The notes under the pieces were generated by a model. It was not told the origin of the DNA. It saw nothing but the letters and a program-made list of their open reading frames with translations, and made no database searches. Shown here in pieces: positions 5,655 to 63,201 of a stretch of 64,000 nucleotides of DNA (position 1 is the stretch's first letter; each line of letters begins with the position of its first letter). The position numbers and the translations under genes are program-made. The stretch covers positions 124,001-188,000 of the forward strand of contig JAHQIW010006047.1 in assembly GCA_019055375.1 (NCBI GenBank), given 5' to 3'. This DNA is from Parelaphostrongylus tenuis. Lineage: Eukaryota > Nematoda > Chromadorea > Rhabditida > Metastrongylidae.

Positions 5655-5845
5655 CTTTATTTCGAGTGCTTTGTTTAGAACACGCTCAATTTCAATAGAT
5701 CCTTTCATTATTTGAGCCAACTCGTCATGTGGTATGGTAAGGGCTCTTGTACAGCCCGATACCTCGTCAGCCGAGTAGAACCCGTCGTTTTCGATATTTT
5801 CATAGAAATTTGAGCGTGGTCTAAACAAAGCACTCGAAGTAAAGG
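5655..5845. mobile_element. Truncated foldback of the hammerhead superfamily
   Basis: TTCGAGTGCTTTGTTTAGAA at 5659 is inverted at 5813-5844, forming terminal repeats of about 35 bp. Inside, on the minus strand, are CTGACGA and the flank GGGCTGTAC known from the ribozyme copies at 6.0 and 10.5 kb. The stem II to GAAA segment has been lost. It looks like a decayed relative of the element at 10165-10630. Confidence 0.5.
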
Positions 5846-6018
5846 TATAATTATGATAAAAATGCCAGCCAAAGAGCAATCGAGTGCGCAACACTCTGTG
5901 TTAGGTGAAAATCTCACTCGACATAGAGTGTAAAGCGTTCGTCTTCGATGACTCTCTATAAGGAGTGTAAAGTTCCCGAGAGAACTGACTATAAAAAGAT
6001 CGACAGACGACGGGTTCT

Positions 6019-6061
6019 GCCCGACTGACGAGTCTGTAAGGACGAAACACGTGTATAGGGT
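6019..6061 (+). ncRNA. Hammerhead ribozyme-like motif (copy B1)
   Basis: The core CTGACGA (6025-6031) is followed by stem II GTCT/GGAC with loop GTAA (6032-6043), then GAAA (6044-6047). Stem III is the self-complementary ACACGTGT (6047-6054), and A6055 is the predicted cleavage nucleotide. Stem I pairs CCCGA (6020-6024) with TAGGG (6056-6060) with one G-A mismatch. A C at core position 7 is allowed in hammerheads. The match is strong in order and spacing, but activity is inferred. Confidence 0.6.
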
Positions 6062-6079
6062 TGTACAAGAGCCCTTACC

Positions 6080-6450
6080 AGACCACATGACATGTTGGCT
6101 CAACTGGAAGATATTCGTCTGCTGCTCCACTTCCACGACAAATTGGATGTCAACGAATCTGCAAGGCGTATGGTGACGAAGTTTGCGATGTTCGTACAGG
6201 TCAGCGTTGGTTCGACACATTCCGTGAAGAGGAAAACCGAACGACCGATAAGCCAAGAGAGGGACGTCCACGAGAAGTCGATGGTAGTTTGTCTTGAAGA
6301 AGATCCATCAATGAGTTATTGGATGTTGGTCGACAAGTCTCACCGCCATGGAATTTTTATGCTGCTGGATATGTGGCTAAATTGTCTTGATGTAGAAGGA
6401 AACTGCTTCGACAATCAATTTTCCCTTTGTTCAAGCCTATCGGTGTACAA
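6080..6450 (+). pseudogene. Mariner transposase N-terminus, frameshifted relic
   Basis: One frame from 6092 gives LEDIRLLLHFHDKLDVNESA, typical of the first helices of mariner transposases. Another frame then reads GQRWFDTFREEE and DKPREGRPREVDGS, the linker of the paired-type DNA-binding region. A third gives YVAKLS. The catalytic domain is absent and the frame shifts repeatedly, so it is a dead fragment. Confidence 0.7.
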
Positions 6451-7029
6451 ATAAGCTACCTTCTATTCTTTGAGAATACTACCGAACTTTTTCAACAGCC
6501 TAGCGATGCCCTCGAAATACTGGTTTTTATTTACGATCTCTCAGCTTAGTAGTGTTTGAGGCATAGGTCGTTATCAAAAGAAACATGCCAAAATGCTGTG
6601 TATGGTCGATCAATGTATGTAAATCTTGAAGACATCTTGTTTAGCCGCTCGAGATTTGTGGTAATACCTTAGAATTCTATGGATAAGAACGATCTGTGCT
6701 GGAAAATAGGCACTTTTTCCAGATTTTGATATGCCTATTTTACTCTCTTTTCTCTTTTGGATTTTTCGTAAGTCTTGCACTGGGGTTCGCGTGTTTGCCC
6801 GTTCTCATTTTTTTCTAATCATACTGTTCTTATCTATGGAACTTTAGGGTAGTTGATGTTGTAGCGGTCGTAGTAATAGCAGTTTGGTGGCCGACGGTTC
6901 GACCACTCCACCTTCTACAGGGCCTGGACGAAGTTTGTATTCGATATTTTGAATGGGTTGGTGGATTATCGATATCTCTACTAACCGCTTAGGTGAGGTT
7001 ATAAGCTCGAACGAAGAAGATGCCATATC

Positions 7030-7165
7030 TCGCGTGATAGTGGCGCATCATCCTTCACTTTCATGTTTGGATTTTTAGCGTGTATATATTTTGGCATTTA
7101 TATAAACGTTAAAAATCCAAAAATGAACCGGAAAGGCAAATGCGTCACTGTCACGCAGAAGATGG
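7030..7165. repeat. Short palindrome, MITE-like hairpin
   Basis: TTTGGATTTTTAGCGT (near 7069) faces ACGTTAAAAATCCAAA (near 7105). The pairing continues outward through GATAGTGGCGCAT against ATGCGTCACTGTC. Arms of about 55-60 bp surround a small AT-rich centre. Confidence 0.65.
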
Positions 7166-7384
7166 CGTATTTTTTCCGTCTGATCTTTTGACCTAAATTA
7201 GACGATATGTAAAGGCATCAATGGTCCACCGAGTCATTCAAATATTCGGATACACTTGTCTCCAGGCTCTGAAGAAGGCGGAATACCCGAAACGTTGATG
7301 TAAATTTTCATGGGAGTCGGTCTTTTGGATTATAAGTAGGCTATCATTCTAGAAGAAAATAGAAAGTTCGCTAAAACTCTAAAG

Positions 7385-7625
7385 GAAAAGCTTTCGGCGT
7401 TGATAAATCCCTGAATGAGGCACCATACATTCGACTTCATCAAAAATTGTTTGAGGTAATTGAATGCATACCTGGCCTTTACAATAATTCGCGTGGAACT
7501 ACCGATCTATCAAGTCACTACTGTGATCCTCCTAGACACATTTAGTATCAGTTTTCCGACCTCGGAGCAATATAATGCTAGGTGACGCAGAACACCTCAA
7601 ATGACTGCACCACCCCTTGAAGGAG
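7385..7625 (-). mobile_element. Diverged tRNA-derived SINE, minus orientation
   Basis: On the + strand the block order is AAAGCTTTCGGCGTTGAT, CCATACATTCGACTTCA, GAGGTAATTGAATGCATACC, CCTCCTAGACA and GCAGAACACCTC. This is the reverse complement of the SINE tail, body and head. It lies just upstream of the first visible complex I exon. Confidence 0.65.
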
Positions 7626-7692
7626 GAAGTTTGTCTTGAAAAATGTGATGCATAACGTTTTTGTGCTGTTTTTGTTACCAACTGCATTTCAG

Positions 7693-10600
7693 ACCGGGAT
7701 CCGATTCGTATGCGTATGACAACCCATGGCCAAAACTCAACGGTGGTCGACTTGATTGGATGTTTGGAGATGGTTGGAGGCGCCCATTGGCAAAAGATCA
7801 AGGAGCGAAAATGGTAAGTTGTGATCCAGTGCGACCATGTGGTTATTCTATTTTAGTGTTATCATTCCTCATACCTTTCTGCTCACTGGAAAGAACTCTG
7901 CATTTCCTAATATTTTTCCTTTTTTTAGCGCAGAGAATGGATTTGGTTCGGAAGGGTCGCGCATGATGAACACAAAGATTGGGTTAACTTTCATCAGGTA
8001 AGTTTAAATTGTCTATACTAGCACATACGCTATTGAAGTTTTCGTTCGCTGTCAAGATTATAAAGGAACTTAGCTTAGGAATTGGGTTGACTATTTTTGT
8101 GATCTAGTCCTAGCAAATACAGGTTACCCTAAGAGTTTAGTGTTATACTCAATATGTGGAGTACTGTGCAAAAACGTTTGCGTCAGCCGCGATTCGAACC
8201 CAGATCTCACTCTTTCCGGGAGCGTATGCTAACCATTGCACTACCGACGCTCGTTTTGCACATCACTCTTATTTAGCATACGCTCCCGGAAAGAGTGAGA
8301 TCTGGGTTCGAATCGCGGCTGACGCAAACGTTTTTGCACAGTGCTCCACATATTGGGTATAGTATAACATCATACCACTGCAAGTGGCAGTCAAAATAGA
8401 AAGAACCTAGACAGTTTAGTGTTAGCTAATTAAGAAACCAGTCTGATGTTCGTACTAGTGAAGATACCTCAGTTCAAAATTCACAGCATTTTTTTTTCAA
8501 CTGGATGGAATAATATGTTTAACGTATTGCGAGGATTTCTTATGGTTTGCCCGTGTTGGCTTCTATAATGATATGTATGAAGGGTTTGTATGTTTTTGAA
8601 GAAGCCTCCCTACTTCTATACCTTTTTCTTTCCGGAGAACTTATTACAGGCAGTAGTAGAATGTTAGATACTGGCCGTCTTTTGTTCTATACTTTCTAGG
8701 ATAAGAAGTGGGTAATCTTTCTAGGCATCCTAGGAACAGATATATGCACTATAGCTTAATTTCGTTTGATGCCAGTGTACTATATGCCTACTGCATCAAA
8801 ACCGCTAGAGGTTCGTTGTTGACACCTTTGATAGTTCATATCGAAGAAATAGTGGTCAAGAGCGGTGATCTTGGTGGTGTAGCGGTAGCTCACACCATCG
8901 GTATGGTGAAACGCGAGTTCGACTCCCAGCTGAAGTCAAAGGTTTCACATACCACTCAACATGTTTGGGTATGTATTAGTTCTCCAATTTGGTTTCCGAA
9001 CTTTATCCAGAAAATAAAAATTTTTTCAACAAAAACACATTTTTCTTTCGTCCATTTTGTGCAGGTTTTCTTGCGCGTCGTGCAGTATATTTTTGCACAT
9101 ACTCGTCCAGCAATGTAACCGTCGCGGGAAGTCATTCGGAACTTACTGCTTCACTAGTTTCAATTGGGTTGACAACATCAATCGTGCAAAAGACCACCAA
9201 GTTGTGGGTAGAACTACGGCGTATGAATGGCTTACAAAGTTCGCAGTTTAGATACTGATTTGGCCGATCAACCAAGATCTCTTACAGTCAAACAAATCCA
9301 CGTTACCGCCGTCGCCAAGGAATTTTGCTCCAAGACAATGCAAAGCCACACGTTGCCAAGAAAATAGGGAACAAGTTGACCGATTTGGGCTAGGAGCACT
9401 TGGATCATCCGCCATATGCGCCAGATCTGTCGCCGTCCGATTTCTTTCTCTTCACATCATTGGAGCGCTGGTTGGACAAGAAGTTGCGAGACATCAATCG
9501 TGTGCGTCGAGATTTGACTAGTCGGTTTGCATCGAAGAATAATGAGATTTATGAGAGCGGAATCGATTTGTTGCCGGAGCGTCGGCAGAGTTGCATCCAG
9601 GCAGGCAGATGGAGAATACTTCAGTTAATGTTATTTGGTACTCTTGAATACTTGGAAAAATAATTTTTGACTTTTGGATCAAGTTCGGAAACTTAGTTGG
9701 AGACTTAATAAATTAAAAATTTGTACCTAAGAGAATTGAGTGGTGAGCAAAAACGCGGCCTCAGGCGGGAATCGAACCTGCGCTTCATCCTATCCGGGTA
9801 CGCGTGCTCTACCACTACACCACTGAGGCAGATTTGCCCGACCACTCATTCTTCAACATCTCAATGTTAGCTATCAGCCACCAACCTTTGACAGGTTTGG
9901 TCGGGTATGCGATTTCGCTTTATAAACCCAGTTGAGCTGACAGCTATTCTAATTACTAATACTTGGAATTAATAGTATTTCAATGCATTTCGCATTGATA
10001 TGATGTTTTCTATATACCTAAGAGAATTGAGCGGTGAGAAAAAACGCGGGTTCGATTCCCGCCTGAGGCCGCGTTTTTGCTCACCACTCAGTTCTCTTAG
10101 GTATATAGAAAACATCATAACAATGCGAAACGCATTAAAATACTATTAATTCCAAAGTTTATTTCGAGTGTTTTCTCAAGATCACGCTCAAATTTCAATA
10201 TATCTGACAATTATTGTTTGAGCCAACATGACAAGTGGTGTGTTATGGGTTTTTCTACAGCTCGCTACACGTGTTTCCGCCTTGACAGCCTCGTCGATCG
10301 GGTGGGCACTTCGTCTTCAGCCAATCCTCTCGAGGCGCTCCAGTCCCCCATTTAGAGTAGGCGACAACGAATGATTTACACTGTCGTCAAGTGAAATAAA
10401 TCACTAGATTGGCGGTTTTGTACAATCAATTGTTCTTGAATAGTATTTTTCATGAAGAACCTGCCCGACTGACGAGATTGTCAAGGCCGAAAAACGTGTA
10501 CCGGGCTGTACAACAGTCCCCATAACAGACCACATGACATGTTGGCTCAAATGAAATTTGAGCGCGGTCTTAAGAAAACATTCGAAACATACCGTGTTAT

Positions 10601-12270
10601 ATTCACAAAATGCCAGCCAAAATATTTATTGTCAAGTTGCTTTTGCTATATTTTGAGCATGTCGGTGAATTTGTTTTCTGGACTTATATTTAAAATGAAA
10701 AAAAAGACTCAATGAGAGCCTTTTTTCTCATGAACACATCGGGAGAAAACTTTGATAATAAGGTGTTTTATGAATAAGCCCTTATAACGTCTGTTGTGAT
10801 GTGTATAACTTTTTTTCACAAAAAAAGCTTTTCAGGGCGCATTTCTAGTATTCACCATGTTAACCACGTGGGTGACCTGCTGGATCATGTTTGCTCGTCC
10901 TGATTGGTCAGTAAATTTACTAATTTCCATTTTTGCTGTTTTTAACCTCACAAGACTGCGTTCTTGAAAATTTGAAGCTCTTTAGACATTGTGAAGTTCC
11001 ACTGTGTTCTTGTGTATGCTGCAGTACACATGACTGACAAAAATTTTCCGAAATTCGGTGTGGATTCCTGGGTTTTTACTTTTCTCTGAATGTGTATTTC
11101 TACTGCTAAATTTTCTGTAAAAAAAAAAACTAAACGCTCTACGTACACCTTTCTTGCTGTTTGATCTGTTTGAGTTTCGTAACTTACTTGATTGCTTCAA
11201 TAGGAAGTTATTGCTTCTTCTTCATTGTGCGTTGTTGCCATGCAAAGTTGTATTTTACTGACACATGCAAGACTGTTTCAGAAGTTATCTGATTTTCTGC
11301 GACATAACGTGGTGGATTGGTTATATACGGAGCATTGTAGCATAGCCATTAGTGATGCAGTGAATCAGAGGTGATAAGCAAGGCGTTGGTTTGGTCCCCT
11401 TCCCGACATTCTCTTGCACTCAGTAAAATGAGATCCAGGAACACTATAGCTTGGATACTTCCAGAATTGCAAGAAGAAACGTCTCGATCAGCATCCACAG
11501 AGAAAACGAAGCCCTCGAGCAGCAGCTAATGCAACACGTGAACTCTCTGAAGACCTTTGTGGAGAATTAATGCGATGAGAATTTTAGACGTGCTGGGATC
11601 CACACAGTAAAATGTGGCAACGACTCGTGAAAAGTATTTATGAAAAGTAGTATTTATGTTAATTATCGCGGTCCGAGTAAGGCGTTGTTACTTCCGTGAT
11701 AGAGCCTTTGGGCTATCAGTTGCTAAGAAATTCCCGTAACCACCTATTATACTCATTGCACTTTGCTTTTATAGTGGAATAGTGACTAGTTTTGTCAAGA
11801 TTTAGAAATGTATCGATTCCTTATTAGCCAGCTACCCATTTCACCGTGGTATTTTTCACTATTGGAGATTTACGAAATCACTGCAGCAAATTTTTATTTT
11901 AAGACTTCACAAATCAAGAGCGAACATAGAAAACAAAGCTAGTAAAGACCAGTCATTTAAGTAATCAATATTCTGAGAACGGAAATTTTGAGAAAATGTT
12001 AATATGACTAACTTTTATTGAATTATTCTAGGCCAATGGGTCGCGAATGGGCACTCCGTGAAGCACACTTGGAAATTGCTCGTCGAGAGAAGGCTGGACT
12101 CCCCCTCATCAGTCCTGACCTGGTTCCAAGGTTCATTTATGGAAAGAAAACTTTGACCAACAGCTTAAACAACTTGATCTCCAGATGAATTGAGGTTCTA
12201 TTTTAGGGAGCGAGTTTTAGCAAGTCTGCCTACGGATGAAGAACTACGCGACTTTGACGTCCTTATTTAA
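7693..12270 (+). CDS. NADH dehydrogenase 1 beta subcomplex subunit 11 (NDUFB11-like), 5' exon missing
   Basis: This encodes an accessory subunit of mitochondrial complex I in the inner membrane. Exons are 7693-7813, 7929-7997, 10836-10906, 12032-12130 and 12207-12270, with intron phases 0, 0, 2 and 2. The first exon opens with one base of a split codon, so an upstream exon with the start and targeting peptide is unseen. Landmarks are DSYAYDNPWP early, one membrane helix in exon 3 (GAFLVFTMLTTWVTCWIMF), then RPDWPMGREWALREA and EKAGLP. These fit the family pattern LPDY, then EW, then RREA, then GLP. The end is LPTDEELRDFDVLI and stop. About 140 residues are visible, against about 150 for the mammalian protein. 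The 2.8-kb intron 7998-10835 is filled with mariner and tRNA-like elements. An AATAAA lies at 12457. NDUFB11 is the best fit. Confidence 0.82.
8153..8352. repeat. tRNA-like foldback hairpin, arms about 79 bp
   Basis: The left arm (8154-8232) and right arm (8274-8352) are nearly identical inverted copies around a 41-base loop. The right arm on + reads ACGCTCCCGGAAAGAGTGAG, GGGTTCGAATC and CTGACGC, then the trailer AAACGTTTTTGCACAGTGCTC. It lies in an intron of the NDUFB11-like gene. The near-perfect arms suggest recent formation or gene conversion. Confidence 0.8.
8868..8962 (+). mobile_element. tRNA-like module (GCCTC family), diverged
   Basis: TTGGTGGTGTAGCGGTAGCTC supplies an A-box-like D-arm and CGAGTTCGACTCCCAGC a T-arm. 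It ends in a trailer resembling GTTTCACATACCACTCAA. It is an older copy of the family best seen at 9762-9831 and 54455-54535. Confidence 0.55.
9050..9663 (+). pseudogene. Mariner transposase relic with catalytic region
   Basis: Near 9110-9250 the residues NRAKDHQVVGRTTAYEWL recall a mariner helix-turn-helix. From about 9325 the frame reads LLQDNAKPHVAKKIGNK, meets a stop (TAG), then continues EHLDHPPYAPDLSPSDFFLF, KKLRDIN and LLPERRQSCI. HPPYAPDLSPSDFFLF is the signature around the third catalytic aspartate (D34D) of mariner. In-frame stops, a missing middle and frame changes make it inactive. Confidence 0.8.
9725..9850 (-). mobile_element. tRNA-like module (GCCTC family), well preserved
   Basis: Read on minus from 9831 to about 9760, a 7-bp acceptor stem pairs GCCTCAG with CTGAGGC. 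GGTGTAGTGGTAGAGC forms a D-arm and GGTTCGATTCCCGC a T-arm. The anticodon region (GTACCCGGATAGGATG) does not form a normal 7-base loop, so it is not called a tRNA gene. Outside the acceptor stem, GAGTGGTC and its partner near the AATTGAGTGGTGAGCAAAAA flank extend the helix. Confidence 0.65.
9955..10160. repeat. Palindromic element with tRNA-like T-arm at its centre
   Basis: The arm AATAGTATTTCAATGCATTT with GATGTTTTCTATATACCTAA and AGAGAATTGAG (9968-10037) is inverted at 10083-10157. The centre retains GGTTCGATTCCCGCCTGAGG and the trailer CGCGTTTTTGCTCACCACTC. The same arm occurs singly at 54665-54735 and diverged at 40010-40070. It marks a longer MITE-like element that carries the tRNA-like module. 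Confidence 0.7.
10165..10630. mobile_element. Inverted-repeat element of the hammerhead superfamily (copy B2)
   Basis: The left arm begins TTATTTCGAGTGTTTTCTCA and runs through CACGCTCAAATTTCA, GTTTGAGCC and ACAGCTCGCTACACGTG. The right arm (about 10460-10585) is its inverted partner, ending GAGCGCGGTCTTAAGAAAAC and ATTCGAAAC. Both arms contain a hammerhead-like core, the right one on + (10463-10506) and the left one on - (decayed). The elements at 5.66-5.85 and 6.0-6.1 kb are relatives. Confidence 0.6.
10463..10506 (+). ncRNA. Hammerhead ribozyme-like motif (copy B2)
   Basis: The core CTGACGA (10469-10475) is followed by a weak stem II, GAAA (10489-10492), a decayed stem III and a predicted cleavage base A10500. 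Stem I pairs GCCCG (10463-10467) with CGGGC (10502-10506) perfectly. Stems II and III carry mismatches, so this copy is probably inactive. The opposite arm has the same core on the minus strand near 10270-10300 with GAAA and ACACGTGT kept. Confidence 0.45.
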
Positions 12271-13612
12271 ATATTCACAGGTTCATAGATTAAATATTGC
12301 TGAAAAGGATTGATGTAAATGTAATACGCAAAAGTTGTTCTGAAAACGCACTGTTTTAAGAGACACAATGATATGTTATAGAGAGTGTGATGACAGAAAA
12401 TTGTTTCCCCTTGTTGTGTTGTCTACTTATGGTCAACTTGGGATGTCGATTTTTTGAATAAATTCAACGGGACAGCCTTTTACCTTACTAACAAACTCGG
12501 CAGACAACGTGTGAACACAGAATATTTTGGCTCGGCGTACGCTTCCACTGGTGAATGTTTGACTGTTTGGTGACAGTTTAATTGATCATCCATCTCATGA
12601 GATTCCCGATAATAATCGAGTAATTCGAGTGGCCAACACCAGACCGAAGTCATCGGGCGGAGCAATAGAATCGTTCAGTGTCTTGAGCTTCTGAAGGTAT
12701 AGCAGGACAAGCACCGTCGACTTTTTTCATATTGTCATTAAGCCATTTAGCACGGCCGCTGATGGAATTGAGTGACTTGAGCCGCCCTACGAGCAAGAAT
12801 CGGGTCTGTATGTATGTGAATCAGTATATGTGTTAGAAGCGTTAAAGACTACGTTGGAAGTGACCTAATATAGGAAGTGCATGTTGTATGAGGGTTAATC
12901 TTCCGTTTCCAGTTAGACTATAACCTCATTTGGATAGCTGTAGTGGTTGTCGGTGAACGACTTTGGCTAAAGATGTTCATGGGCTGAACAGCGCGTAACA
13001 ACTGAATTGTCTTTGTTCGTATCCTTACTTTTAGAATATATCTTTTTTTTTTTTCAAAAATTGGCTGGAAGAAGCTATAGCAATCAGTGTATCAAATAGA
13101 ATGTGAGCCTTTGGAAAAGATAATAACGGCTTCGACGCTCACATAAGGTGCCGGATCTTGCTCAAATCTCAGCGTCCTTGCGATGAAGATAGAATAGGCA
13201 GTAAATAAGTATTAGAACGTTGTAAAATCTCCTCATATGGCGATCTATATAAGTGGCTATTGGTCTTTTCCTAAAGCGGATTTCAAGTTCAAAGATGATG
13301 GCCAAAGATTGTTGAGTTTCATAGTAACAACTAGTTAATTGTCCCTCATATTCTAAGAACCGTCGCTCATAGACGAATTTGAGTTAGTTTTATCGGTCGA
13401 AGTTTATACTACTCCGATCTTGTGTTAAATTTTTATCAAAATTGGGAACTAAGTAGGTTCTATGAAGTTGATATACACGTCATTATATGCTTGATTTATA
13501 GCTAATTTAAAAAGAAGAGTGGAAGACAATGGAAAAGAGTGTGAGTGAAGTTTTCTTCTAGGGATTGACATCAATTATTCCAGTTACTTCCATGGAATCT
13601 TGATTTTCTTAG
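12271..13612. other. Intergenic stretch, nothing recognised
   Basis: This holds the 3' end of the NDUFB11-like gene (AATAAA at 12457-12462) followed by about 1.1 kb of AT-rich sequence. Open frames here are short and lack good splice-site pairs or known motifs. Confidence 0.5.
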
Positions 13613-13755
13613 TCGACGCTGATAGAGATGAATTGTCCTTTGTATCCACACTGCGCAAACGAGATGATGAAGTACTTCGCCATAGACGTCCACCACGATT
13701 AGAATCTCTGAACAAATATACGATTGTTTCATTATCGAGAAAAAATAACTTAACA
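13613..13755 (+). CDS. Orphan exon candidate, unrecognised protein
   Basis: An open segment of 47 codons lies between a good acceptor (TTTTCTTAG) and a strong donor (GTAAGT). It starts with two bases of a split codon and ends in phase 0. It encodes a charged stretch including DADRDELSF, RKRDDEVLRH and RPPRLESLNKYTIVSL. Composition and splice sites look coding, but no family is recognised. It may belong to one + strand gene with the candidates at 15531-15668 and 16024-16122, although the joining exons were not found. Confidence 0.35.
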
Positions 13756-20099: not shown

Positions 20100-21004
20100 G
20101 GAGACAGCACCTTGCTTACCTGTCTCCTGAAACACCGTATCACTAATCACTGCGTTATCCCTCCCCCATAAAATTTTGAATAAGCTTCGTTTCAGCGTAA
20201 AGGACAGAGCTATCGACTTTAAACAACCCTATGGTGACGTTTCGTGCAAATTTCTTCATTCGTAGTGTCTTAGAGATGAGTGAAATGCATAGTCAACGTA
20301 CCCAATAATATGCGAAAACTACCAATGTTTCAGCCGTGTTTTTTTGAATTCAAAACTTCTCTGCCATTAGAATGCCGAATGGGTGAAGAATTGAACCGGT
20401 AATCACGTGTATACAGCAAAGCATCTCTGACGATTGCTCTAAATGTGTCTCAGTTCCAATATATACGTCAGGCATTGCATAGACTGCAGACAACTCGTGG
20501 AAACCCTCCTGCAATCTTGGAAGCATACATGTTCGAGGAGACAAGTACTAGGGTAAAGTTCACTCAAATATATTTTGATGTACATGTCTAAAATATACTT
20601 TTTCACATAGATTTACCATACATATGCTATAGTTAACAGGTATGACTGGCAGAGAATCTTGAAGTCATCCATATTGAACTGGTTCTCGTAGGTGGCAATC
20701 TGGTTTAACTGAAGGTCGGCAAATAAACGCTATTCCCCATTACAACGTAATATCACACTGTTATCCACTTATTGATCAATCGCGGTGATCTCCATGCCGT
20801 ATGGATTTTTCTGATTGTCTAAGGAAGTGGAACTCATTGTTTAACAGAAACATATTGATCTTTCCTCTCAGTCTTTCTGTTTGTAGTCTATTTCACACAT
20901 TTTCTCACCTAAAGTTTGCAAACTAATATTCTCCCTTCGTTCTGGTTGACTTTTGCTGATTCATTAAAGACTATCTGAATATCCTTACAATCGACTCTTT
21001 TTAT

Positions 21005-21560
21005 AGACCTCGCTCAAAGCAACGTACGATCTGATAACATATTTTGAGCCTTTCATGAGATCTGTTATGGCACTTATAAAGTGCCTGACACGTCTTTTGG
21101 CATTACAGCCTCATCAGTAGCACGATGCCTTTCGGTTCAGCAAACCCCTCTAGGGTGGCGTACGCCTTACATATGAAGGAATCGAGTCTGAGTTATTTCA
21201 AATCACCGCATGTCCAGTGATAAAATCCTCCGACACTGCAGTGACTAACAGTGGACTATTCATCCTGCTGAAAAAAAAATTATACACTATTTATTCGACT
21301 ATTTTTATAGATCATTCTCAAAACCGTTGATCACTGCAGTGTCTGGGGATTCAATCACTTGACATGCGGTGATTCGGAATTATTCGGCGCCAATACCTTT
21401 ATATGTAGGGAATATGTCTCCTTACGAGGGATTGCCAAACCGAATGACACCGTTCAACTAATGAGACTGAAATTGCTGAAACCCGTGTCTAGTACTGCAT
21501 AAGTGCCAATAACAGGCCTCATGAAAGGCTCAAGATATCCTATCAGACTAGCTAGATATA
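21005..21560. mobile_element. Old inverted-repeat element of the hammerhead superfamily
   Basis: The left arm starts TTTTTATAGACCTCGCTCAA and runs through ATCTGATAACATATTTTGAG, CATGAGATCTGTTATGGCAC and CTCATCAGTAGCAC. The right arm near 21430-21550 is its inverted partner. The centre has a second nested pair (ACTGCAGTG). On minus, GTGCTA and CTGATGA (21111-21123) with stem II GGC/GCC are intact, but GAAA is lost. On + the other arm reads CTAATGAGACTG then GAAAC. It is an aged copy of the element at 62128-62887. Confidence 0.6.
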
Positions 21561-23499: not shown

Positions 23500-23690
23500 C
23501 ACTTGACTGATAGTGATATTTCTTCAGCGCCGATTCTAGTAATAGCATATGTGAGCATGAGGGCATGCGGTACTGATGAAACGTACGAGAACGACGAAAC
23601 GCACCTATACCACTAAGATGTCATGTCACACCTCTTGAAGGCTTAAAACATTCTGTCAGACTATATAAAGTTATTATTAATTTGAAAGGA
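23500..23690 (+). mobile_element. Fragment of the hammerhead superfamily element (copy C1)
   Basis: GCGCCGATTCTAGTAATAG matches the block upstream of the ribozyme in the 62.7-kb arm (GGCGCCGATTCCTTTAGAG). Downstream of the core, CTTGAAGGCTTAAAACATTC and TGTCAGACTATATAAA match the shared tail. No inverted partner is seen nearby, so this is a single arm. Confidence 0.5.
23567..23613 (+). ncRNA. Hammerhead ribozyme-like motif (copy C1)
   Basis: CTGATGA (23573-23579) and GAAA (23596-23599) flank a stem II with CGT/ACG pairing. Stem I pairs GCGGTA (23567-23572) with TACCAC (23608-23613) at five of six positions. A23607 is the predicted cleavage base. Stem III is weak here (ACGCACCT), whereas the relative at 31.38 kb has ACGTACGT. 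Confidence 0.5.
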
Positions 23691-44255: not shown

Positions 44256-44529
44256 AGTTATTCGTAACAATCTTGACTAGGCATGTGATGCGTAGTCGAA
44301 CTAAATTAATGGGTACCTACTTCGGAAATAAATCAATAAAAGTCTAATGAGTCTTATAAGTATTACATTAGAGACTGCGCAGCGAAATTTGATAGATGGC
44401 TAGTTCTCAGGAGGCGACCTATGTTCCTGTCACCTACAACCCTGTCATGAGACACTCTACCCATCAAAACAACAGTCTTATATACTGATTCAATCACGAG
44501 TAATAACGAGGCACTCCTCCCTACGGTTC

Positions 44530-44965
44530 ATAGTTCGATTGGTCTTGTTAATCCAAAACTCTTCCAAAATCTTTCGCACTGATATTGCATGTTCTTCTGC
44601 AAGAATGGTGACTTCGATATCAATATCTACTCCTTCATGTTTCTGTGTTTTATGTGTCCCTAGCGGCGTGTTTCGTCTATTGAGACGCTTGTCAGCCAGA
44701 TGTTCTTCTATGCGAGCATAGAGCGGCCTATCCGTTTCGCCAGTCTAGTTACTGCTACACGAGTATCTTCTTCTCTTTAGGCTAAACAGAAGAAGATACT
44801 CATTTATTCAAACTATGCCGAGGTTAATAGATAGCCGGTCCTGGGATTTATTGCTACACGCTTTGCAAGAGGTTAGGCAAACTGTACCTGCGACCATGTA
44901 ATCACCGCCTCTGCCGTTAGGACATATTTTACAATCTTTCATTATACAGAGACGGTCATATAAGC
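44530..44965 (-). pseudogene. GIY-YIG endonuclease fragment of a Penelope-like retroelement, copy 1
   Basis: On minus, pieces read MKDCKICPNGRGGDYMVAGT, CLTSCKACSN, then RPLYARIEEHLADKRLNRR, TPLGTHKTQKHEG, EVTILAEEHAISVRKILEEF and WINKTNRTMN. A cysteine pair, the YIGETGRPL-like region and the LEEFWI motif fit GIY-YIG domains at the C-terminus of Penelope-like elements. The frame is interrupted around the YIGET motif and no reverse transcriptase is present. It faces copy 2. Confidence 0.6.
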
Positions 44966-45229
44966 GATTACGATCTAATTGGAGTCTTAGAGTATTCGGT
45001 GGTATCTCAATGATAGCTACCGATTGCTCTCATCTGATCTTTTCAAACAACGTTTAATAGCTGTAGTTATCTCATTTGAAATGAACGGGAGGATAAACGG
45101 GATCTTTCTTTCATTCGAGTTTACGTTCGGTGGAGTACCGTTTCCTCTAAACCTAAGCCGAGGGTCATAAATTCCTTTCCATTAGAAGTGGCTATTTCCC
45201 GAACCAGTTTTACAAATTCTACTCTCTGT

Positions 45230-45610
45230 TCTTTTCCAGAGGCTTGGCAGTGATTGCATGGTTTTAGGTACAGTTTACCTAACCTGCTGCAAAGCGTGTA
45301 GCAATAGTAATATTGGCGAAACGGGTGGGCCGCTCTATGCCCGCATAGAAACACACCTAGCTGATAAGCATCGTAATAGATGAAACACCCCGCTAAGGGC
45401 ACATAGACCATATATAGTTGGCGGAGTAGATTTTGATATCGAAGTCACCATCCTTGCGCAGGAACAAAAAACTTTAGCGCGAAAGATTTTGGAAGGGTTT
45501 TGGATTAACCGACCAGTCCCAACTATGAACCGCAGGAAGGAATGCCTCGCTGTCACTCGTGTAATAAGACTGTTGCACTGATGGGTAGGGTGCATTACGA
45601 GCCTAGGTGA
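45230..45610 (+). pseudogene. GIY-YIG endonuclease fragment of a Penelope-like retroelement, copy 2
   Basis: On + the reading is GTVYLTCCKACSNSNIGETG, GPLYARIETHLADKHRNR, a stop, NTPLRAHRP, VDFDIEVTILAQEQKTLARK, ILEGFWINRPVPTMN and RRKECLAVTR. It is collinear with copy 1 in the opposite orientation. Only the endonuclease portion is present, with a stop inside. Confidence 0.6.
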
Positions 45611-46316
45611 TCGCCTTCCGTTGATCTCCACTTGAATCATTCAGCGGAACACATATAAAAAGCGGTGTGAATGTTGATAAATGATTTTGTGCTGGATGCG
45701 ATTGGAAGGTGAATTCTTCTAAAGAGGGAATGGAATTGTTTCACTGATTGGATTGCGGACAACTTGACCCTTCCAGGCCTCGAAGAAGGCGAACTGCCGA
45801 AACGTCAGCTGTTGAATGAAGATATTAAATGACACCTCGTGCTTGGCTTAGAGAAGTAAATTAGGAATTATTGAACATGCCGAGGTTAACAGACAGTCGG
45901 TAATGGCAATTGTTTAGAAGTTACTGATTTACTCTTTCCCTAGAGAGATTATTAGATGGTCGGTCCTGAATATTCTTAACTTTTCCAATTAGATTATCCT
46001 ACTCACCTTAGACAATTCTAATCAATCCTTTCAATACAAAATATTTGTGCAAGTTTTTCTTGCCTCAAAATAAGAAAACTTGCACTCAATGTTTTCTTTT
46101 ACGCATAGAAGATGTTAAACTTTACAGTTCGATAATCAAGATGTGGAAAATTGTTTATTGAACTAAAGAAGAAAGAGAGTTATGTCACAATTAAAAGTTG
46201 CGATTTGTCGAATACTTCTTCTATTATTGTAATGTTATCTATTCTATGGAACATTTTTTTACGTTAACGAAGTCATACAACACTTCATAGTTCGTTGTCA
46301 GCTACCGTAACATTTC

Positions 46317-52802: not shown

Positions 52803-53360
52803 GAGCAGTTAGTGGAGTGCTGTGCAAAAAGATTCGCGTCAGCCGGGATTCGAACCCAGATCTCTCTTTCCGGGGGCGTATGCCAACCGTCGCGCCAGCG
52901 ACGCTCGTTTTCAACAGCACTCTTTTTACGCTACAAGGCGTTACCTGTCATCAGCCATCCGTCGACGGTCTGGAGGGGCAGCCACTATCGGCACCAAACC
53001 CACTTGTGCTGACAGGTACTGGGTATCGATAATCAATCAGAGTTCTTTTTAACTGACCACCAGCTGCGGTGGTATGATCTTGTAATATACCCGATAATGT
53101 GGAGTGCTGTGCAAAAACATTTGCGTTAGCCGGGATTCGAACCCAGATCTCACTCTTAACAAGTGGGTTTAATGCCGATAGCGGTTGCCCCGCCAAACCG
53201 TCGAACCCGGCTGTTGACAGGTAACGCCTTGTAGCGTAAAAATAGTGCTGTGCAAAACGAGCGTCGGTGGTGCAACGGTTAACATACGCTCCCGGAAAGA
53301 GTGAGATCTGGGTTCGAATCCAGGCTGACGCAAATGTTCTTGCACAGCACTCCTTATTAA
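52803..53360. mobile_element. Large inverted-repeat element with tRNA-like ends
   Basis: The left part (52803-53000) and right part (53160-53360) are inverted: GTGGAGTGCTGTGCAAAAA, the tRNA-like core, ACGCTACAAGGCGTTACCTG, CAGCC and the ACCAAACCCACTTGT block all recur as complements. Between them is a further minus module (GTGGAGTGCTGTGCAAAAAC at 53099) preceded by GACCACCAGCTGCGGTGGT. The + module at about 53262-53333 has a T-arm TCTGGGTTCGAATCCAGG, an acceptor stem GCGTCGG/CTGACGC and the trailer AAATGTTCTTGCACAGCACTC. Confidence 0.75.
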
Positions 53361-54424: not shown

Positions 54425-54560
54425 TATATACCTAAGAGAATTGAGTGGTGAGCAAAAACACGGCCTCAGGCGGCAATCGAACCCACGTTTCATCCTATCC
54501 GGTGACGCGTGCTCTACCACTACACCACTGAGGCACATTTGCCCGACCACTCATTCTTCA
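54425..54560 (-). mobile_element. tRNA-like module (GCCTC family), well preserved
   Basis: This is nearly identical to 9725-9850: ACCTAAGAGAATTGAGTGGT, GAGCAAAAACACGGCCTCAG, CTCTACCACTACACCACTGA and GCCCGACCACTCATTCTTC. The following 150 bases (CAACATCTCAATGTTAGCTA to AATGCATTTCGCATTGTTAT) also match 9850-10010, so the homology extends well beyond the tRNA-like part. Confidence 0.75.
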
Positions 54561-54719: not shown

Positions 54720-55105
54720 CACCTAAGAGAATTGAGAAAAAAATTTTGAAAGAACTGTCTGAAAAAATTGATTTCGAAATTCCCAGTGTTTTTTTTTTTT
54801 TGCAATTTTCGCAGTCTCATGATGCTTTACACATACATAAGAAAGTTGAGTGGAGCAAAAATACAACTTCAGACGGGATTCGAACCCGCGCCTTATCCTT
54901 TCCGGGGACTCGTGCTACTACTACACCGCCGAGGTGCAGTAGCAGCCATTCATTCTTCAATATCTCTATGATAACTGTTAGCCACTAACCTGGTTGAAGT
55001 ACCAACCTGTTCAGTGCAATGGTAGCTCGCGTTCCTGGTAAGGACGAAACGCGGGTTCGTGTCCCGCCTGAGGTCTTATTCTTGCTCACCACTCAATTCT
55101 CTTAC
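54720..55105. mobile_element. Facing pair of diverged tRNA-like modules (GCCTC family)
   Basis: A minus module at about 54850-54945 (AGACGGGATTCGAACCCGCG, CTACTACACCGCCGAGGTG) faces a plus module at about 55010-55095. The plus module reads TCAGTGCAATGGTAGCTCGC, GAAACGCGGGTTCGTGTCCC and GCCTGAGGT, then CTTGCTCACCACTCAATTCT. They lie between AAGAGAATTGAG flanks. Confidence 0.65.
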
Positions 55106-57675: not shown

Positions 57676-57689
57676 AGCGTGACTGGCTT

Positions 57690-57935
57690 GAATGTCGAGA
57701 CCGACTACCCGGGCCAGGCCGTTGACGGCTGGCGGCTAACAGATAGGTGCGCTGTAGCGTAAAAAGATCGATGTGCAAAGTGGGCGTCAGTAGTGTAGCG
57801 GATAGAGCACGCATTCCCGAAAAGAGTGAGGTGCGGGTTCTAGTCCCGCCTGGCGCGAAAGTTTTGCACATCACTCTACATTAGTGGGTACATTTTATGA
57901 CATCATACCACCGCTGTAAGCGGTTCAATAAAAAG
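57690..57935 (+). mobile_element. tRNA-like element (GCGTC family) with full 5' flank
   Basis: The 5' flank GCTAACAGATAGGTGCGCTG TAGCGTAAAAAG leads into GATGTGCAAAGTGGGCGTCA. The module GTAGTGTAGCGGATAGAGC with GCGGGTTCTAGTCCCGCC follows. The trailer is GAAAGTTTTGCACATCACTC, then ACATCATACCACCGCTGTAA. It is collinear with the right half of 52803-53360, which defines the single-arm form of the element. Confidence 0.65.
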
Positions 57936-58149
57936 AATATCATCAAATTACAATTTAGCTTTGGAGCGCATTTTTTGCTCGACTAGGACTCGTGGATGCT
58001 TTCATAGAGTTTTAGTATCTCTTCGATAGCCTAAAAACAAAAAAAAACGTCCACTCAAAACTAGGTTTGATTTTTAAATAGGTCTTCAAAGAGAGAGAAA
58101 AGAAACTTATTGGATTGTTTCATAATTTCCTTCACACTGTTGCTTTATT

Positions 58150-58690
58150 CAGTTTTTCCATTCAAATCAGGTTATTACCAAGAAGTTGTGGTGTGTTCGA
58201 GAATGTTTTAGTTGCTCTAGCCACGAGATAAGATACTAGGATACCAGCAGGATACTAATGCTAGGCTACGATACTAGCAGCCAGATAGATTTGGCAGTTC
58301 GTCCAAACTCAAACCAGGCAAAACTCAACCAAACAATTAAACAAAAGTTGACTTACTACGTATTGGAGAAGCTGGGTTAGACCACGGCATTACATTCACC
58401 GTATATATAACTGTTATTGGTCCATCGGAGGATCATGTCCTCTACACGCTGAACTAGTATCTGCCGTAGGAAAAATTGATGGGCTACAACCAGCTCAAAA
58501 AAGACCTCACCAATTTGTTTGATCGATAGTCTCATTTTTGTGGGGGAAGGCATCTTGTCTTTGCCCGGCAGACGGTTGCTCACCATTGATCATTATGGCG
58601 ATTGTACTGATGATTGACAAGTTTCTCCAAACAAATCACAACTGATTCAACAAAAATGTTGAAATGAGGAAGATGTTCTGGGACAACCAA
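58150..58690 (+). pseudogene. Mariner transposase C-terminal relic
   Basis: This aligns with 39200-39690. Shared landmarks are GGTTATTACCAAGAAGTTGT/GGTTATTGCTAAAAAGCTGT, GACCACGGCATTACATTCAC/GACCATGGCATCACATCCAC, a run encoding YNQLKKDL, and GGGGGAAGGCATC/GGGGAGGGTATC. Many stops are present and nothing is functional. Confidence 0.55.
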
Positions 58691-58699
58691 ATACGTCTC

Positions 58700-60495
58700 G
58701 CACTAAAAGATACTAATACTAAGAGGATATGAACGTGTACACAAAATCGCTGTATATCAAAATATCAAAAAGTTTAGCAATTCCTAGCAAAGGAGAAAAC
58801 TTTGTTATGTACATAACGGAGATCTCTCTGTTTTGGAGGGGCATTTGGAATCGTTAAACGAAAGCGATTTTTGTTAATTTTTCAGAAAATTTTCTTCGGT
58901 TCTCGAAAAAATTTCTAAGTTTCTCGTATAGCGATTGTAGAAGAGACTTTGCTCTATTACTTAACAAGAACCAGCTATTTTCCATATTAACGCTATGAAG
59001 TCATGAAGAGCATACTATGACGTTGAAGTTACAAGCTAACTACTTCAAATGTGAAATCTAATCTTCTTTTCGCTCTTGCAGTGCTCTATGAAGACCTTTC
59101 CAAAGTTCAATCTCATAATCAACAAGAGTTATGTTAAAAAATGGCTACTGAACATTTGGTTGAAAAATTATTCATAGACTCTAGCTGAGCAAACAAAGCA
59201 AGCCAAATGTTGAAAACGTATATTTGCTGCTAGAGCGCAATGAAAAGGTTTTTCCGGAGATCACACACAGCTTTGGAATCGCGATTTCTCAAGCTGTCGA
59301 ATGATCACTTAAAGTCTAACAGGAATGCTTTCCTAAACGAAGAAAGTTTTCAATATATGTGTATCCGTACTACTGCTACACCCGTTCCAAATGGGTTGAA
59401 TCGTTCTAGATTGGAGCGCTTCTTTGTTATTGAATACAGGAAGGAAAAATAGAAGATAAAGAAGGAATAAACATTATGAAAATTATGAAAACGCAGAAAC
59501 GAGGATGATAAGGGCAGTCTGGTACGTAGAATATTAACATTCTAAAAGTTTTTCGAGGTAACGATCTCGTGTTTTCCTTCAAATCAGAAGATAATTTCGT
59601 TGATACCAACAAATGTTATTGGAAAATTTATTTCAGTATATTGATCAGCGTATTGATTACTGCTGAGTCAGCTTTCTTAACAGAATTATCAAACCTTGAA
59701 GAAAGCCGTATCTCCCAATTTGGGAACTTTCAAAGACATTACAACAGTATAAAAAAGCAAATATTTATCGATATGGAACCCATTAAAAGCGAAAACATAA
59801 ACATATGACCCGTAAAGGAATGAGACCATCCACGAGACCTGCAATGAGTTGGTTTTCAAGCAAAGATTATCTTTTATCACATTGGAATATCACTCTCATC
59901 AACATATAGACCATAGCTTCAAGAATGAACATAAAGGAATTGATGGAGTGCATTTTCCAAAAGAACGTTGAGTTATTAACTGGGTGAATCAATGTGTGGT
60001 CAAGGAATTAGAGTTAAGTCTACAACAGCAACGAATAAAGTTAGAAAAATGAGTGCATCTTCTCAGTGCAAGTTTATAAGAGATGCCTTATTCGCTAATG
60101 AGATTATAGGCGCTTTAGTGGTTTCTGATAAGGCTAAGTACTAATGGTCCTAAAAATGTCCTAGATTGCACATTAATGGAGTTTTTCAGTGAGTTCATAG
60201 CGTTTGGCGAGAGAGAGAGAAAGCAACGTAACGGTGGGCCAAATGTACAAAGAATTCCTGCATTTTTTATCCAATTTAACAATTAACGAGACATTGTTTC
60301 TTCTTTCGAATGTCATTAGTGAGGGCAATGCTCTCATATGACCGAAAAAATGGCATTTTGAATAAAATTTCGTCATCATCACGATAGTACTGTTACAGTG
60401 GTCGCAGTATCTCAGATACAGGACATCAGAGAAAAGCATCAAATGAAGGCGTCGATTTGGCCCAAGTTCACTCTCTCGACACGATACATCTATTC
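58700..60495. other. Intergenic stretch, nothing recognised
   Basis: Downstream of the GPCR gene. Short open frames on both strands lack motifs and splice-site support. Confidence 0.4.
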
Positions 60496-60501
60496 GGAAA
60501 C

Positions 60502-63201
60502 TCATAAGAGTGCTTGCTCAGTGTCCTCGTACAGTCGCATATTGTTGCTTGATTGACTTTGTATAATCATCAACTTTCCATGATCAGAGGAAAAACGGAC
60601 AACACACTGAGTTGAATTGTCAACGATCGCTTTTGCTACATCCCCTACATGTTGGCTAGTGGACCTGAAATCTAATTCATTCGTATTCTTTACAATTCCT
60701 GCTTTCAATTCATTCTTACTATTATCAATACAATTTGAACAACTTGAACACCTTGCAAACAAAGCATTAACTTATCTTTGAGAAAATTTCTCGCTGCATG
60801 AATTATTCATGGACAGCAAATTTTAGTTTACCTCGACGTTCTGGCTTCAGAATTGATATTGTTCATATTCATCATGGATATAAAACTCATGTGATTCTCG
60901 TTATCAGAATTGTCACTTTTCATCTGAAATTAGGAGTTATGTGCTCAATTCCTATGTATTGACCTAATTACTACATAATTTCATTAACTGCTTAAGAATG
61001 TAAGTGAAACACTGGAGAAAGTGATATGCTAAACATAGTTTTCAAAAAATGAAGAAGACAAATCTGTCATGGCTAATAAAACAGCCCATGAAATAAGATG
61101 TAAAAACCTGAAAAAAAAATTTTGGATCTTCACTGAATTAGGTTTACACGAATTACTGTTGGTGTAGTCATTTGAACCACAGTGCGGTGCACAAAGTTTT
61201 TGGTTCGATTCTACGCAGTGGGAGAATACAAGATGAGAATCGCATGAACCACCATCATGGATATCGACTGGAAGGCAAAAAGGGAAAGGATGACGTGTTA
61301 GCGCTGCACAGCCTGTGGACACGGAAAACCAGCCCACTTTCTCTCTAGACGTAAAGCAACTGCTGCAGGCCTTGTTGCTATTTTTCCCACTCGACGTTCT
61401 CTCTTTTCAACAAATTCGTATCAGGCGCATGTGGGAGAGTAACAACCAAGTTTGTTACTTGGATAAGTCTCCATAGTTATTGTTTAGTCATATGTGAATT
61501 CAATCACTTCTGAGAAACTAAAAATCGACTCGAATGCATAGCACATCCGTAAGGTTTTGGTCGCTGTTGCACACCATATATATAGTTGTCTCTTTATCAG
61601 TCGTTGATTACATTTTACTGTACCTGAAGTTGAGTGTTAAGTAACCCATATAAAATCCAATTAGATGAGCTGCCGAAGTACGGTAACAGATGGACGCAGT
61701 AGATTACAAACAAGAGTAATTGACTTGTTGTCGTTGGTAAGCCGACCAATGACATTACAATTGCATAAAGCACAGAAAACCTATAAGCAGAAATTTTGAC
61801 AATCATTTATGTGGCTTGTGAAAAAGAAAGCTAACAAACACGGTTCTATTGATCAGGTCATATCTATGATGATTGGAATTTGAAAAATCATTATATATTT
61901 GAACAATCTGTGAAATAAATTGAGCCATGAGCGCTTTTATAACAATCTCATCCATGCTTGTTTCTCTAAAACATGTTTTTCTTGCTTGGAAAGTGGATTA
62001 TTGAGCTTACCAGATGTTTATGAGAACAAATAAGCCGTTTAAGTTTAAGCATAGTCCTAATGCTTACAGTACTCATAAAATATCTATGCATATGTCAGTA
62101 TGGAATATCTTCAAGAGAGTGGAAAGTATATGACTTATTTTGAGCCATAGGTCTAGTGCTATATAGGCGCCTATTTCGTCCTATTGGGACTCATCAGTAC
62201 CACCCTCCCTCGGTTCCGTCGATCCCTTGAGGTTAAATAATCCTCTAAAGGAATCGGCGCCGAGTAAATTCTAATCACCCAAAGTCGGATGATGGTCTTA
62301 CCTAACTTTGTGGTGACCGGCAGTCGAGCTTACGGCTTTTAAAATGAACTATACTTCTGCTATCGACTGCTTTTTTACAGACCCGCTCAAAATGATTTAA
62401 TCTGATAAGGATATGACTTATTTATTGACTTATTTAGGATATATATCTATATCTATATATATATATCTTATTTATTAGGATATGACTTATTTATGACTTA
62501 TTTAGGCCTATATAGCACTAGACCTATGGCTCAAAATAAGTCATATCCTTATCAGATTAAATCATTTTGAGCGGGTCTGTAAAAAAGCAGTCGATAGCAG
62601 AAGTATAGTTCATTTTAAAAGCCGTAAGCTCGACTGCCGGTCACCACAAAGTCAGGTAAGACCATCATCCGACTTTGGGTGATTAGAATTTACTCGGCGC
62701 CGATTCCTTTAGAGGATTATTTAACCTCAAGGGATCGACGGAACCGAGGGAGGGTGCTACTGATGAGTCCCAATAGGACGAAATAGGCGCCTATATAGCA
62801 CTAGACCTATGGCTCAAAATAAGTCATATCCTTATCAGATTAAATCATTTCGAGCGGGTCTGTAAAAAAGCAGTCGATAGCAGAAGTAGAGTGGAAAGTG
62901 TTTGGAAAAGTTAAGAAACCACAATCTATTATCAAACTTAACAAAACTGACCAATAAGGTGTCCAACAAACAAAGTAAACAGCAGCTATCAATACCGTAT
63001 ACATGACAATTCGCCTAAGTGGTATAGAAGATTGTGGAAGCACCCTGAAGAAGATATTTTTTATGAAAAGGGATTTGAGTAATGTGAAAAGGAAAGGAAG
63101 GAGAAATTGACAACCTCTTGTGAACACAGAGCTTTCGAATCAATCTCAAATTGAAAAATACGATTAATATTAACGGTACCACGTAGCCGAGAATGAATGT
63201 T
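60502..63201 (-). CDS. Rhodopsin-family peptide GPCR, 3' half (TM5 to C-terminus)
   Basis: Exons in order: 63201-63115 (TM5), 63044-62952 (TM6), 61780-61624 (TM7), 60923-60832 and 60751-60502 (cytoplasmic tail). Phases 2, 2, 0 and 2 join cleanly. TM5 is FILGYVVPLILIVFFNLRLI. TM6 is LRRIVMYTVLIAAVYFVCWT followed by PYWFSVLYA. TM7 is LLLFVIYCVHLLPYFGSSSN followed by WILYGLLNTQLQ. CWTP in TM6 and an N..ILY end of TM7 identify a class A receptor; CWTPYW resembles peptide receptors of the GnRH/vasopressin kind. The TM7 motif NPxxY is NWILY here. The tail begins MKSDNSDNENHMSF and is rich in S, N and D. TM1-4 should lie beyond 63.3 kb, off or near the right edge. Intron 61781-62951 holds the large palindrome. 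The acceptor of the last exon (TTTGCAAG) is the weakest call. Confidence 0.8.
61150..61560 (+). mobile_element. Decayed tRNA-derived SINE pieces in GPCR intron
   Basis: GTGCGGTGCACAAAG and GGTTCGATTCTACGCAG resemble a head. GTGAATTCAATCACTTCTGA, GACTCGAATGCATAGCACAT and CCGTAAGG resemble the conserved tail. Confidence 0.5.
62156..62203 (-). ncRNA. Hammerhead ribozyme, left-arm copy (A1-left)
   Basis: This is the mirror of 62754-62801 on the opposite strand. Core CTGATGA, stem II, GAAA and the stem III palindrome are all intact. One base in stem I (position 62200) breaks a GC pair, so the stem is GTGGTA against TAGCAC. It may be weaker than the right-arm copy. Confidence 0.65.
62754..62801 (+). 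ncRNA. Hammerhead ribozyme, type I (A1-right)
   Basis: Stem I GTGCTA (62754-62759) pairs perfectly with TAGCAC (62796-62801). The core CTGATGA is at 62760-62766. Stem II GTCC/GGAC with loop CAATA is at 62767-62779. GAAA is at 62780-62783. Stem III ATAGGCGCCTAT (62783-62794) is fully self-complementary. A62795 is the predicted cleavage base. All conserved hammerhead positions are met. A very short stem III is known from metazoan retroelement hammerheads, which are thought to cut best as dimers. Confidence 0.85.

Follow-up and report, generated by a model that had tools for sequence, protein, structure and literature searches.

The 64,000-nt stretch of the nematode Parelaphostrongylus tenuis analysed here (contig JAHQIW010006047.1, positions 124,001 to 188,000; hereafter the window) contains, near 62 kb, a short element built from two arms that lie head to head on opposite strands inside a 12-bp target duplication, AGAGTGGAAAGT (Table 1). 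Each arm spans more than one 283-nt unit carrying a hammerhead ribozyme motif and a tail hairpin. Unit positions are counted from the ribozyme cut and given as U numbers. Inverted repeats with hammerhead remnants at approximately 5.65–6.10, 10.16–10.62 and 20.99–21.55 kb are older relatives of this element. With two families measured, we conclude that these are short non-autonomous retroelements with units of 283 or 319 nt, whose RNA comprises a minimal hammerhead and a tail hairpin.

The hammerhead of the 62-kb element

Only one motif in the window, that of the right arm (62754–62801, plus strand), passed a strict scan that demanded a stem I run of at least 3 bp, a stem II of at least 3 bp and a fully self-complementary stem III. 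The same scan produced no match in any of 20 block-shuffled windows. The motif is complete and consists of stem I GTGCTA/TAGCAC, the core CTGATGA...GAA, stem II GTCC/GGAC and, as stem III, the 12-nt palindrome ATAGGCGCCTAT; cleavage is predicted after A62795. The Rfam model Hammerhead_1 scores this motif at 29.5 bits (E 0.0034) and that of the 6-kb copy (6019–6061) at 27.2 bits (E 0.019); neither reaches the gathering score of 34. At the gathering threshold, Rfam reports tRNAs but no hammerheads in the window. MicroRNA matches among the sub-threshold Rfam hits are located on inverted or simple repeats and were rejected as artefacts.

In the sampled genome DNA and the window, we could identify 28 distinct hammerheads (114 instances) with paired stems I and II and a fully self-complementary stem III. 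Since the scan demanded these properties, the collection shows the range of stems, not their frequency. Stem III occurs as 12-nt ATAGGCGCCTAT or ACAGGCGCCTGT, as 8-nt ACACGTGT, as ACGT and in three one- or two-base variants. The inner pairs of stem I include CTA/TAG, CGA/TCG, GTA/TAC and GCT/AGC, and stem II reads GTCC/GGAC or GATC/GATC. All three stems vary between families yet remain pairable, and all 28 motifs have the minimal form of Penelope hammerheads (type I with a very short or palindromic stem III).

An earlier note on this DNA had described a stem III that differs between copies and stays self-complementary, had read this pattern as a dimer-type ribozyme, and had proposed compensatory stem changes and a core kept genome-wide as checks. 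Paired alternatives do exist in stems I, II and III. Three different palindromes (ATAGGCGCCTAT, ACAGGCGCCTGT and ACACGTGT) confirm the variable stem III, within a scan that required self-complementarity, and such a pattern would fit a ribozyme acting as a dimer. The predicted dimer of the 62-kb motif, joined by an intermolecular stem III, has a free energy of -45.5 kcal/mol. For the monomer, the predicted minimum is -14.5 for a structure other than the hammerhead, and the hammerhead fold reaches -11.1. The circular unit folds better than 100 shuffled sequences (z -4.3).

One short and one long end

The assembly that contains the window (481.5 Mb, 5,105 contigs) holds 1,636 exact matches to the 24-nt hammerhead core (778 + 858), compared to 0 for the reversed pattern, so that the core occurs across the genome far above chance. 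The tail hairpin pattern GGCTCAAAN{4,34}TTTGAGCG matches at 6,508 places (3,238 + 3,270; control: 14, 10 + 4). The first 100 listed core places of the 1,636 correspond to 66 distinct loci, from which 64 were taken (two, on contigs C241 and C279, were left out); with the window copy, the sample comprises 65 loci. L002–L005, which overlap with L001 and L028, were excluded. Because all loci were chosen by an intact exact core, this sample favours young copies. It includes a small fraction of the 1,636 matches.

A minus arm is followed by a plus arm in 43 of the 65 loci, and 22 loci contain a single arm. The outer ends of the arms are 3' ends in the RNA sense. By zones fixed after inspection of the data (short, U30–61; long, U84–109), both ends are assigned in 35 of the 43 two-armed copies, giving 33 short+long, two short+short (L012, L065) and no long+long pairs. 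L020 and L021 have flanks that are more than 99% identical; since they share both flanks, they represent one insertion. Without L021, 32 of 34 independent copies are short+long, with 16.9 expected if the two ends were independent (p 3.4e-8). These copies thus have the tail of 30–50 nt at one end only that is characteristic of Penelope elements. The short ends of two-armed copies lie about 39 nt and the long ends about 90 nt past the cut. Exact ends, obtained at 24 loci by trimming the duplications, are U32–49 (short) and U84–98 (long) in 23 loci, with L012 as the exception. The distance between the two is 42–62 nt in 23 of the 24, slightly above the published 30–40.

L020 and L021 are mirror images about 88 kb apart on contig C179, which points to either an assembly artefact or the inverted duplication of a large region.

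Duplications of at least 11 bp, most commonly 12, flank 25 of the 35 copies, whereas among 350 mismatched flank pairs a single one has such a repeat. Some of the 25 are weak as evidence, one being an AAT repeat and several others rich in A and T. Inverted arms resembling pseudo-long terminal repeats (pseudo-LTRs) together with a target duplication are the anatomy of a Penelope-type insertion. Long inverted repeats and target duplications would also be produced by a miniature inverted-repeat DNA transposon that contains a hammerhead by chance. The termini of such transposons are matching terminal inverted repeats, whereas here the left and right ends lie at different unit positions; moreover, arm lengths range from 0.14 to 4.4 units and the junctions are scattered. 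We therefore give this explanation hardly any weight.

Among the 22 one-armed loci, 13 terminate at the short end, six at the long end and three elsewhere. Three of the 22 carry a 12–13-bp repeat at their ends, so one-sided insertion also seems to occur. Of the eight two-armed copies with an end outside the zones, seven are poorly aligned (79.7–82.9% mean unit identity) and one, L042, is 98.8% identical.

The 319-nt unit was taken from L093, and its family was sampled at six loci (L090–L095) and in the window. Three of four clearly two-armed copies obey the short/long rule: L092 (ends 121/76), L095 (116/56, with a 12-bp duplication) and the 6-kb copy of the window (114/48). A 13-bp duplication flanks the one-sided L093, and L090 and L091 are single.

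Junctions, templates and the Penelope-like elements of the same genome

We analysed the junctions in 33 copies with a mean identity above 90%, counting both L020 and L021. The inner ends are dispersed round the unit (Rayleigh p 0.49), and the inner coordinates of the two arms fall within 20 nt of each other in 4 of 33 copies (4.8 expected). The seams contain microhomology or filler, part of which is arm-like, and across the 43 junctions measured the inter-arm gap does not exceed 152 nt. Since the inner ends are dispersed and unmatched, the two arms appear to be individual cDNAs that were joined at their ends. Self-priming of the second strand by one cDNA, as proposed for rotifer Penelope (PMC3846280), would also create head-to-head arms in the form of a snap-back palindrome, and the arms of L042 do meet at the stem III palindrome. 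However, fold-back is disfavoured by the junction coordinates, which look unrelated, and by outer ends at two different, fixed sites. We regard this origin as highly improbable.

Only 1 of 66 inner ends lies within 3 nt of the ribozyme cut. Without a pile-up at this position, the usual template is apparently not a linear monomer released by the ribozyme, and run-off on such a monomer was rejected. Units repeat head to tail inside an arm (direct 283- and 319-nt repeats), and the arms themselves are mostly inverted. Arms of approximately four units, as in L009, need a circle or a multimer as template. Sequences from one arm have a mean identity of 0.966 (51 pairs); the value is 0.959 for opposite arms (80) and 0.900 for different elements (9,406). 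Differences at which both alleles are common number 16 of 101 inside single arms and 13 of 144 for opposite arms, as against 652 of 1,383 for different elements (from 400 random draws). The arms mostly carry identical subfamily variants, which fits one RNA per insertion and also two RNAs of one subfamily.

A genome search for the GIY-YIG domain (PF01541) of Penelope-like elements (PLEs) returned 1,723 first-look candidates, and 150 of the 150 that were scored pass the cut-off. Neighbouring GIY-YIG rows within 5 kb are minus/plus in 20 cases, minus/minus and plus/plus in one case each and never plus/minus, showing that many autonomous Penelope copies also lie head to head. Locus L069 contains an open reading frame (ORF) of 893 aa with RVT_1 (45.2 bits) and GIY-YIG (31.4 bits) domains and a 1,338-bp inverted copy (99.4% identity). 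The closest named relatives of this ORF come from Necator americanus (59% over 99%), Ancylostoma ceylanicum and Haemonchus contortus; among solved structures, none matches the Penelope ORF at E 0.01. CTGANGA...GAAA occurs downstream of the GIY-YIG domain in 18 of 19 sampled loci (L071–L089; not L077), and ACGT follows GAA in 16 of these 18 hammerhead-like motifs. In 13 copies of PLE-A, the right ends lie 56–70 nt (seven copies) or 102–111 nt (five) past the cut and are unclear in L074, which gives two end positions about 45 nt apart. L069 has a long left end, and the Penelope long end lies about ten codons inside the ORF. By eye, the short motif AGTCG is seen ahead of the long end in both Penelope types as well as in the 283-nt unit and the 21-kb type, which is suggestive only. 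The autonomous PLEs of this genome thus match the hammerhead elements in layout and in kind of end pair.

The telomerase-like reverse transcriptase (RT) and GIY-YIG ORF of autonomous Penelope elements is present in L069 and lacking in the hammerhead elements. In a tblastn search of the window with the L069 ORF, the only match was at 44.49–45.58 kb, in a Penelope remnant with head-to-head arms (44.45–45.92 kb). The hammerhead element is therefore not itself an autonomous Penelope. It might still be a pseudo-LTR piece or an internal-deletion product of one, rather than an independently mobile family that has an RNA unit of its own: Penelope elements are abundant here, their hammerheads and ends are similar, and solo pseudo-LTRs have been described (PMC3846280). 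Three observations speak against this origin. The 283-nt unit has no significant match to L069 (best E 0.61), the 1,636 identical cores and the 283-nt tandem periods point to the unit's own amplification, and the inter-arm gap is too short for a coding region. We consider it unlikely.

At C4645:44880–49400 (L096/L081/L097), a Penelope-B fragment lies between two arms of a 319-nt-type element, with the long start site of Penelope-B abutting the hammerhead element body. This arrangement is either a nested insertion or the product of a template jump; no duplication was found at the locus.

Table 1. Positions of hammerhead and Penelope features in the window
Feature	Position	Strand	Remarks
Left arm, older element of the 319-nt family	5650..5805	-	long outer end
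Right arm, same 6-kb element	5802..6103	+	short outer end; hammerhead 6019-6061, stem III ACACGTGT
Isolated Penelope-type hammerhead remnant CTGAAGAAGGCGGAATACCCGAAACGTT	7261..7296	+	
Left arm of decayed relative	10158..10264	-	78.5% identity to 319-nt unit
Right arm of decayed relative	10454..10619	+	hammerhead remnant ~10469-10505; outer end off the short/long rule
Left arm, third type	20991..21252	-	long outer end (by eye), decayed hammerhead
Right arm, third type	21323..21547	+	short outer end (by eye)
Probable single-arm hammerhead remnant	23556..23660	+	decayed tail
Left arm, autonomous-type Penelope remnant	44453..45231	-	RT C-terminal side and GIY-YIG
Right arm, same Penelope remnant	45250..45920	+	decayed hammerhead ~45774-45809, long-type end
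Left target-site duplication AGAGTGGAAAGT, 12 bp	62116..62127		flanks 62-kb insertion
Left arm of 62-kb element, 1.06 units	62124..62423	-	outer end short, U34 after duplication trimmed
Left-arm hammerhead motif	62156..62203	-	single stem I mismatch, GTGGTA/TAGCAC
Inter-arm filler, 82 nt	62424..62505		short repeated bits of arm sequence; end-joining-like
Right arm of 62-kb element, 1.34 units	62506..62892	+	outer end long, U92 after trimming
One complete 283-nt unit	62513..62795	+	ribozyme cut to ribozyme cut
Tail hairpin GGCTCAAA...TTTGAGCG	62528..62573	+	AGACC/GGGTCT extension; loop contains short end zone
Complete hammerhead motif	62754..62801	+	scan, Rfam
Right target-site duplication AGAGTGGAAAGT, 12 bp	62888..62899		flanks 62-kb insertion

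The earlier note had counted at least six hammerhead loci in the window. The element at 62 kb is complete, those at 6, 10 and 21 kb are relatives (with decayed hammerheads at 10 and 21 kb), and the 23.5-kb locus is a probable remnant: at 23.57 kb, CTGATGA...GAAA and a partial stem I are retained next to a non-palindromic stem III. The remaining locus was not confirmed as a hammerhead, since at 31.38 kb GCAA replaces the required GAAA and a second arm is absent. The ordered tail that the same note had assigned to these loci is shared in part. The hairpin GGCTCAAA...TTTGAGCG is common to the 62-, 10- and 21-kb types, with an altered version in the 6-kb copy. There is no single fixed string, since AACAGA occurs in the 10- and 21-kb copies, CATGA in the 6-, 10- and 21-kb copies (not in the 62-kb tail) and TATCAGAT in the 62- and 21-kb copies. 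In line with the note's statement that no copy encodes a protein, tblastn finds no RT or GIY-YIG coding matches in the hammerhead elements. The assignment to nematodes agrees, indirectly, with the Necator, Ancylostoma and Haemonchus relatives of the genome's Penelope ORF; a scan of the window for a nematode spliced leader gave no match. The proposed retrozyme-like family is indeed non-autonomous and present in many copies; it does not simply consist of free-standing retrozymes, because its insertion anatomy is Penelope-like.

The 21-kb copy has, by eye, a long left and a short right end, and a target duplication there is indistinguishable from chance (best match 10/13; at least 10 in 34 of 200 random controls). 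An alternative pairing partner for the 3' strand of stem I lies just downstream in the 6/10-kb and 21-kb types (GGGCTGT...ACAGTCCC or GGCACTT...AAGTGCC; L090–L095 and 6.06, 10.5 and 21.07 kb) and might switch the RNA out of the hammerhead fold. Positions 6086–6450, immediately adjacent to the 6-kb element at its short end, encode what we take to be the N-terminus of a mariner-like transposase. The 62-kb insertion adjoins open frames (62843–63332, minus strand) that presumably resemble seven-helix receptor exons, judging by a CWTPYW-like motif. Seven tRNA-family matches in the 64 kb (8179–8250, 9757–9829, 53261–53332, 54462–54534, 54865–54935, 55013–55067 and 57784–57857) resemble one another by eye and are perhaps a tRNA-derived repeat rather than tRNA genes.

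Proposed insertion mechanism and relation to known systems

The hammerhead elements are real, abundant and PLE-like in their insertion, and they are not simply a retrozyme. With Penelope elements (PAc of Anolis, PMC11167929; A. vaga, PMC3846280), they share inverted pseudo-LTRs, a target duplication, a tail optional at one end, a minimal hammerhead and two internal RT start sites. In A. vaga, the duplications measure 8–10 bp and a 31-bp tail is optional at one pseudo-LTR, and self-priming was proposed (PMC3846280). Minimal, possibly dimer-acting hammerheads are known in Penelope pseudo-LTRs, and Terminons, by their description giant Penelope-related retrotransposons, contain similar ones and differ by their size (PMC7761336). 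Unlike Penelope, the hammerhead elements lack the RT/GIY-YIG ORF and consist of a 283- or 319-nt unit repeated up to about four times per arm (L009). The purified anole Penelope protein cleaves and extends both target strands in vitro, and its two start sites, adjacent to each other inside the RNA, correspond to the genomic tail. The anole hammerhead is inactive without this protein, and the later steps of Penelope insertion were left unvalidated (PMC11167929).

Animal non-LTR retrozymes are also non-autonomous, tandem hammerhead units of a few hundred nucleotides, with a GC content below 50% (0.438 and 0.436 here) and duplications longer than 4 bp (PMC7229834). A canonical retrozyme of this class, a tandem circular-RNA element moved by a long interspersed nuclear element, would thus account for unit size, GC content, tandem units and the presence of a hammerhead. 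However, canonical retrozymes have canonical type I hammerheads, characterised by loop 1–loop 2 tertiary contacts, in tandem repeats of about 150–450 bp, whereas the hammerhead here is of the minimal Penelope kind with a palindromic stem III and the direct 283- and 319-nt repeats lie in arms that are mostly head to head. The main text of PMC7229834 does not contain the word 'inverted', and neither head-to-head arms nor a short/long end rule were found in the part of that paper covered. We judge this alternative very unlikely. The same paper names Penelope as a strong candidate mover of animal retrozymes, and goes no further.

We therefore favour, with good confidence, the interpretation that these are non-autonomous hammerhead elements mobilised by PLEs and inserted by two-sided target-primed reverse transcription. 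By this route, the ribozyme would cleave the element RNA, probably in dimers that form at the palindromic stem III, and the RNA would then circularise or persist as a multimer; both the RNA circles and the ribozyme activity are what we infer. A Penelope protein would bind this RNA and make a staggered target cut. Reverse transcription would be primed at both target 3' ends, each at one of two internal RNA sites, and each cDNA would travel round the template for a variable distance before host end joining fuses the two into an inverted repeat.

A number of observations weigh against this interpretation. Single arms (22 of 65 loci), short+short pairs (2 of 35 copies) and the 8 of 43 two-armed copies with one or both ends off the zones depart from the rule, the zones are post hoc, and the loci were selected by their exact core. 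In the 319-nt family, the 10-kb copy (ends 108/134) breaks the rule and L094 has a complex, unusual layout. Opposite arms are not always nearest relatives, since among 28 elements they are more alike than the best outside match in eight, less alike in 15 and tied in five. The anole hammerhead is dispensable for insertion in vitro, and no difference in anole start sites was seen from one strand to the other, unlike the strict pairing described here (PMC11167929). Mobilisation in trans by Penelope would follow by analogy from the shared anatomy; a cognate autonomous element with matching hammerhead and tail was not found, and the 283-nt unit has no significant match to the one Penelope locus compared, L069.

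In the literature covered (on hammerheads, retrozymes, Penelope and nematodes, with most subscription journals outside), we found, judging by titles and the opening of abstracts, no published description of this hammerhead family; PMC5718144 contributed nothing on this point. Within the same coverage, three findings are new: head-to-head arrays of non-coding 283/319-nt units, a counted one-short-one-long rule combined with scattered junctions, and the association of hammerhead units with Penelope anatomy inside a single genome.

More tentatively, and at somewhat less than even odds in our estimate, a Penelope dimer may act on a single circular hammerhead RNA, with one protomer starting at the short site and the other at the long site, on opposite target strands and from the same circle. 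If so, the one-short-one-long rule would be a genomic footprint of two-sided priming, and animal hammerhead circles would be directly linked to the Penelope machinery. These findings bear on two open questions, the route of Penelope insertion and the mover of animal hammerhead circles (PMC11167929, PMC7229834). Short copies with fixed end pairs, present in large numbers, are a natural record of what the Penelope reaction produces. They speak for two primed target strands, each with its own start site, and for cDNA pairs fused by end joining rather than made by self-priming, and their units of about 300 nt are short templates for in vitro tests.

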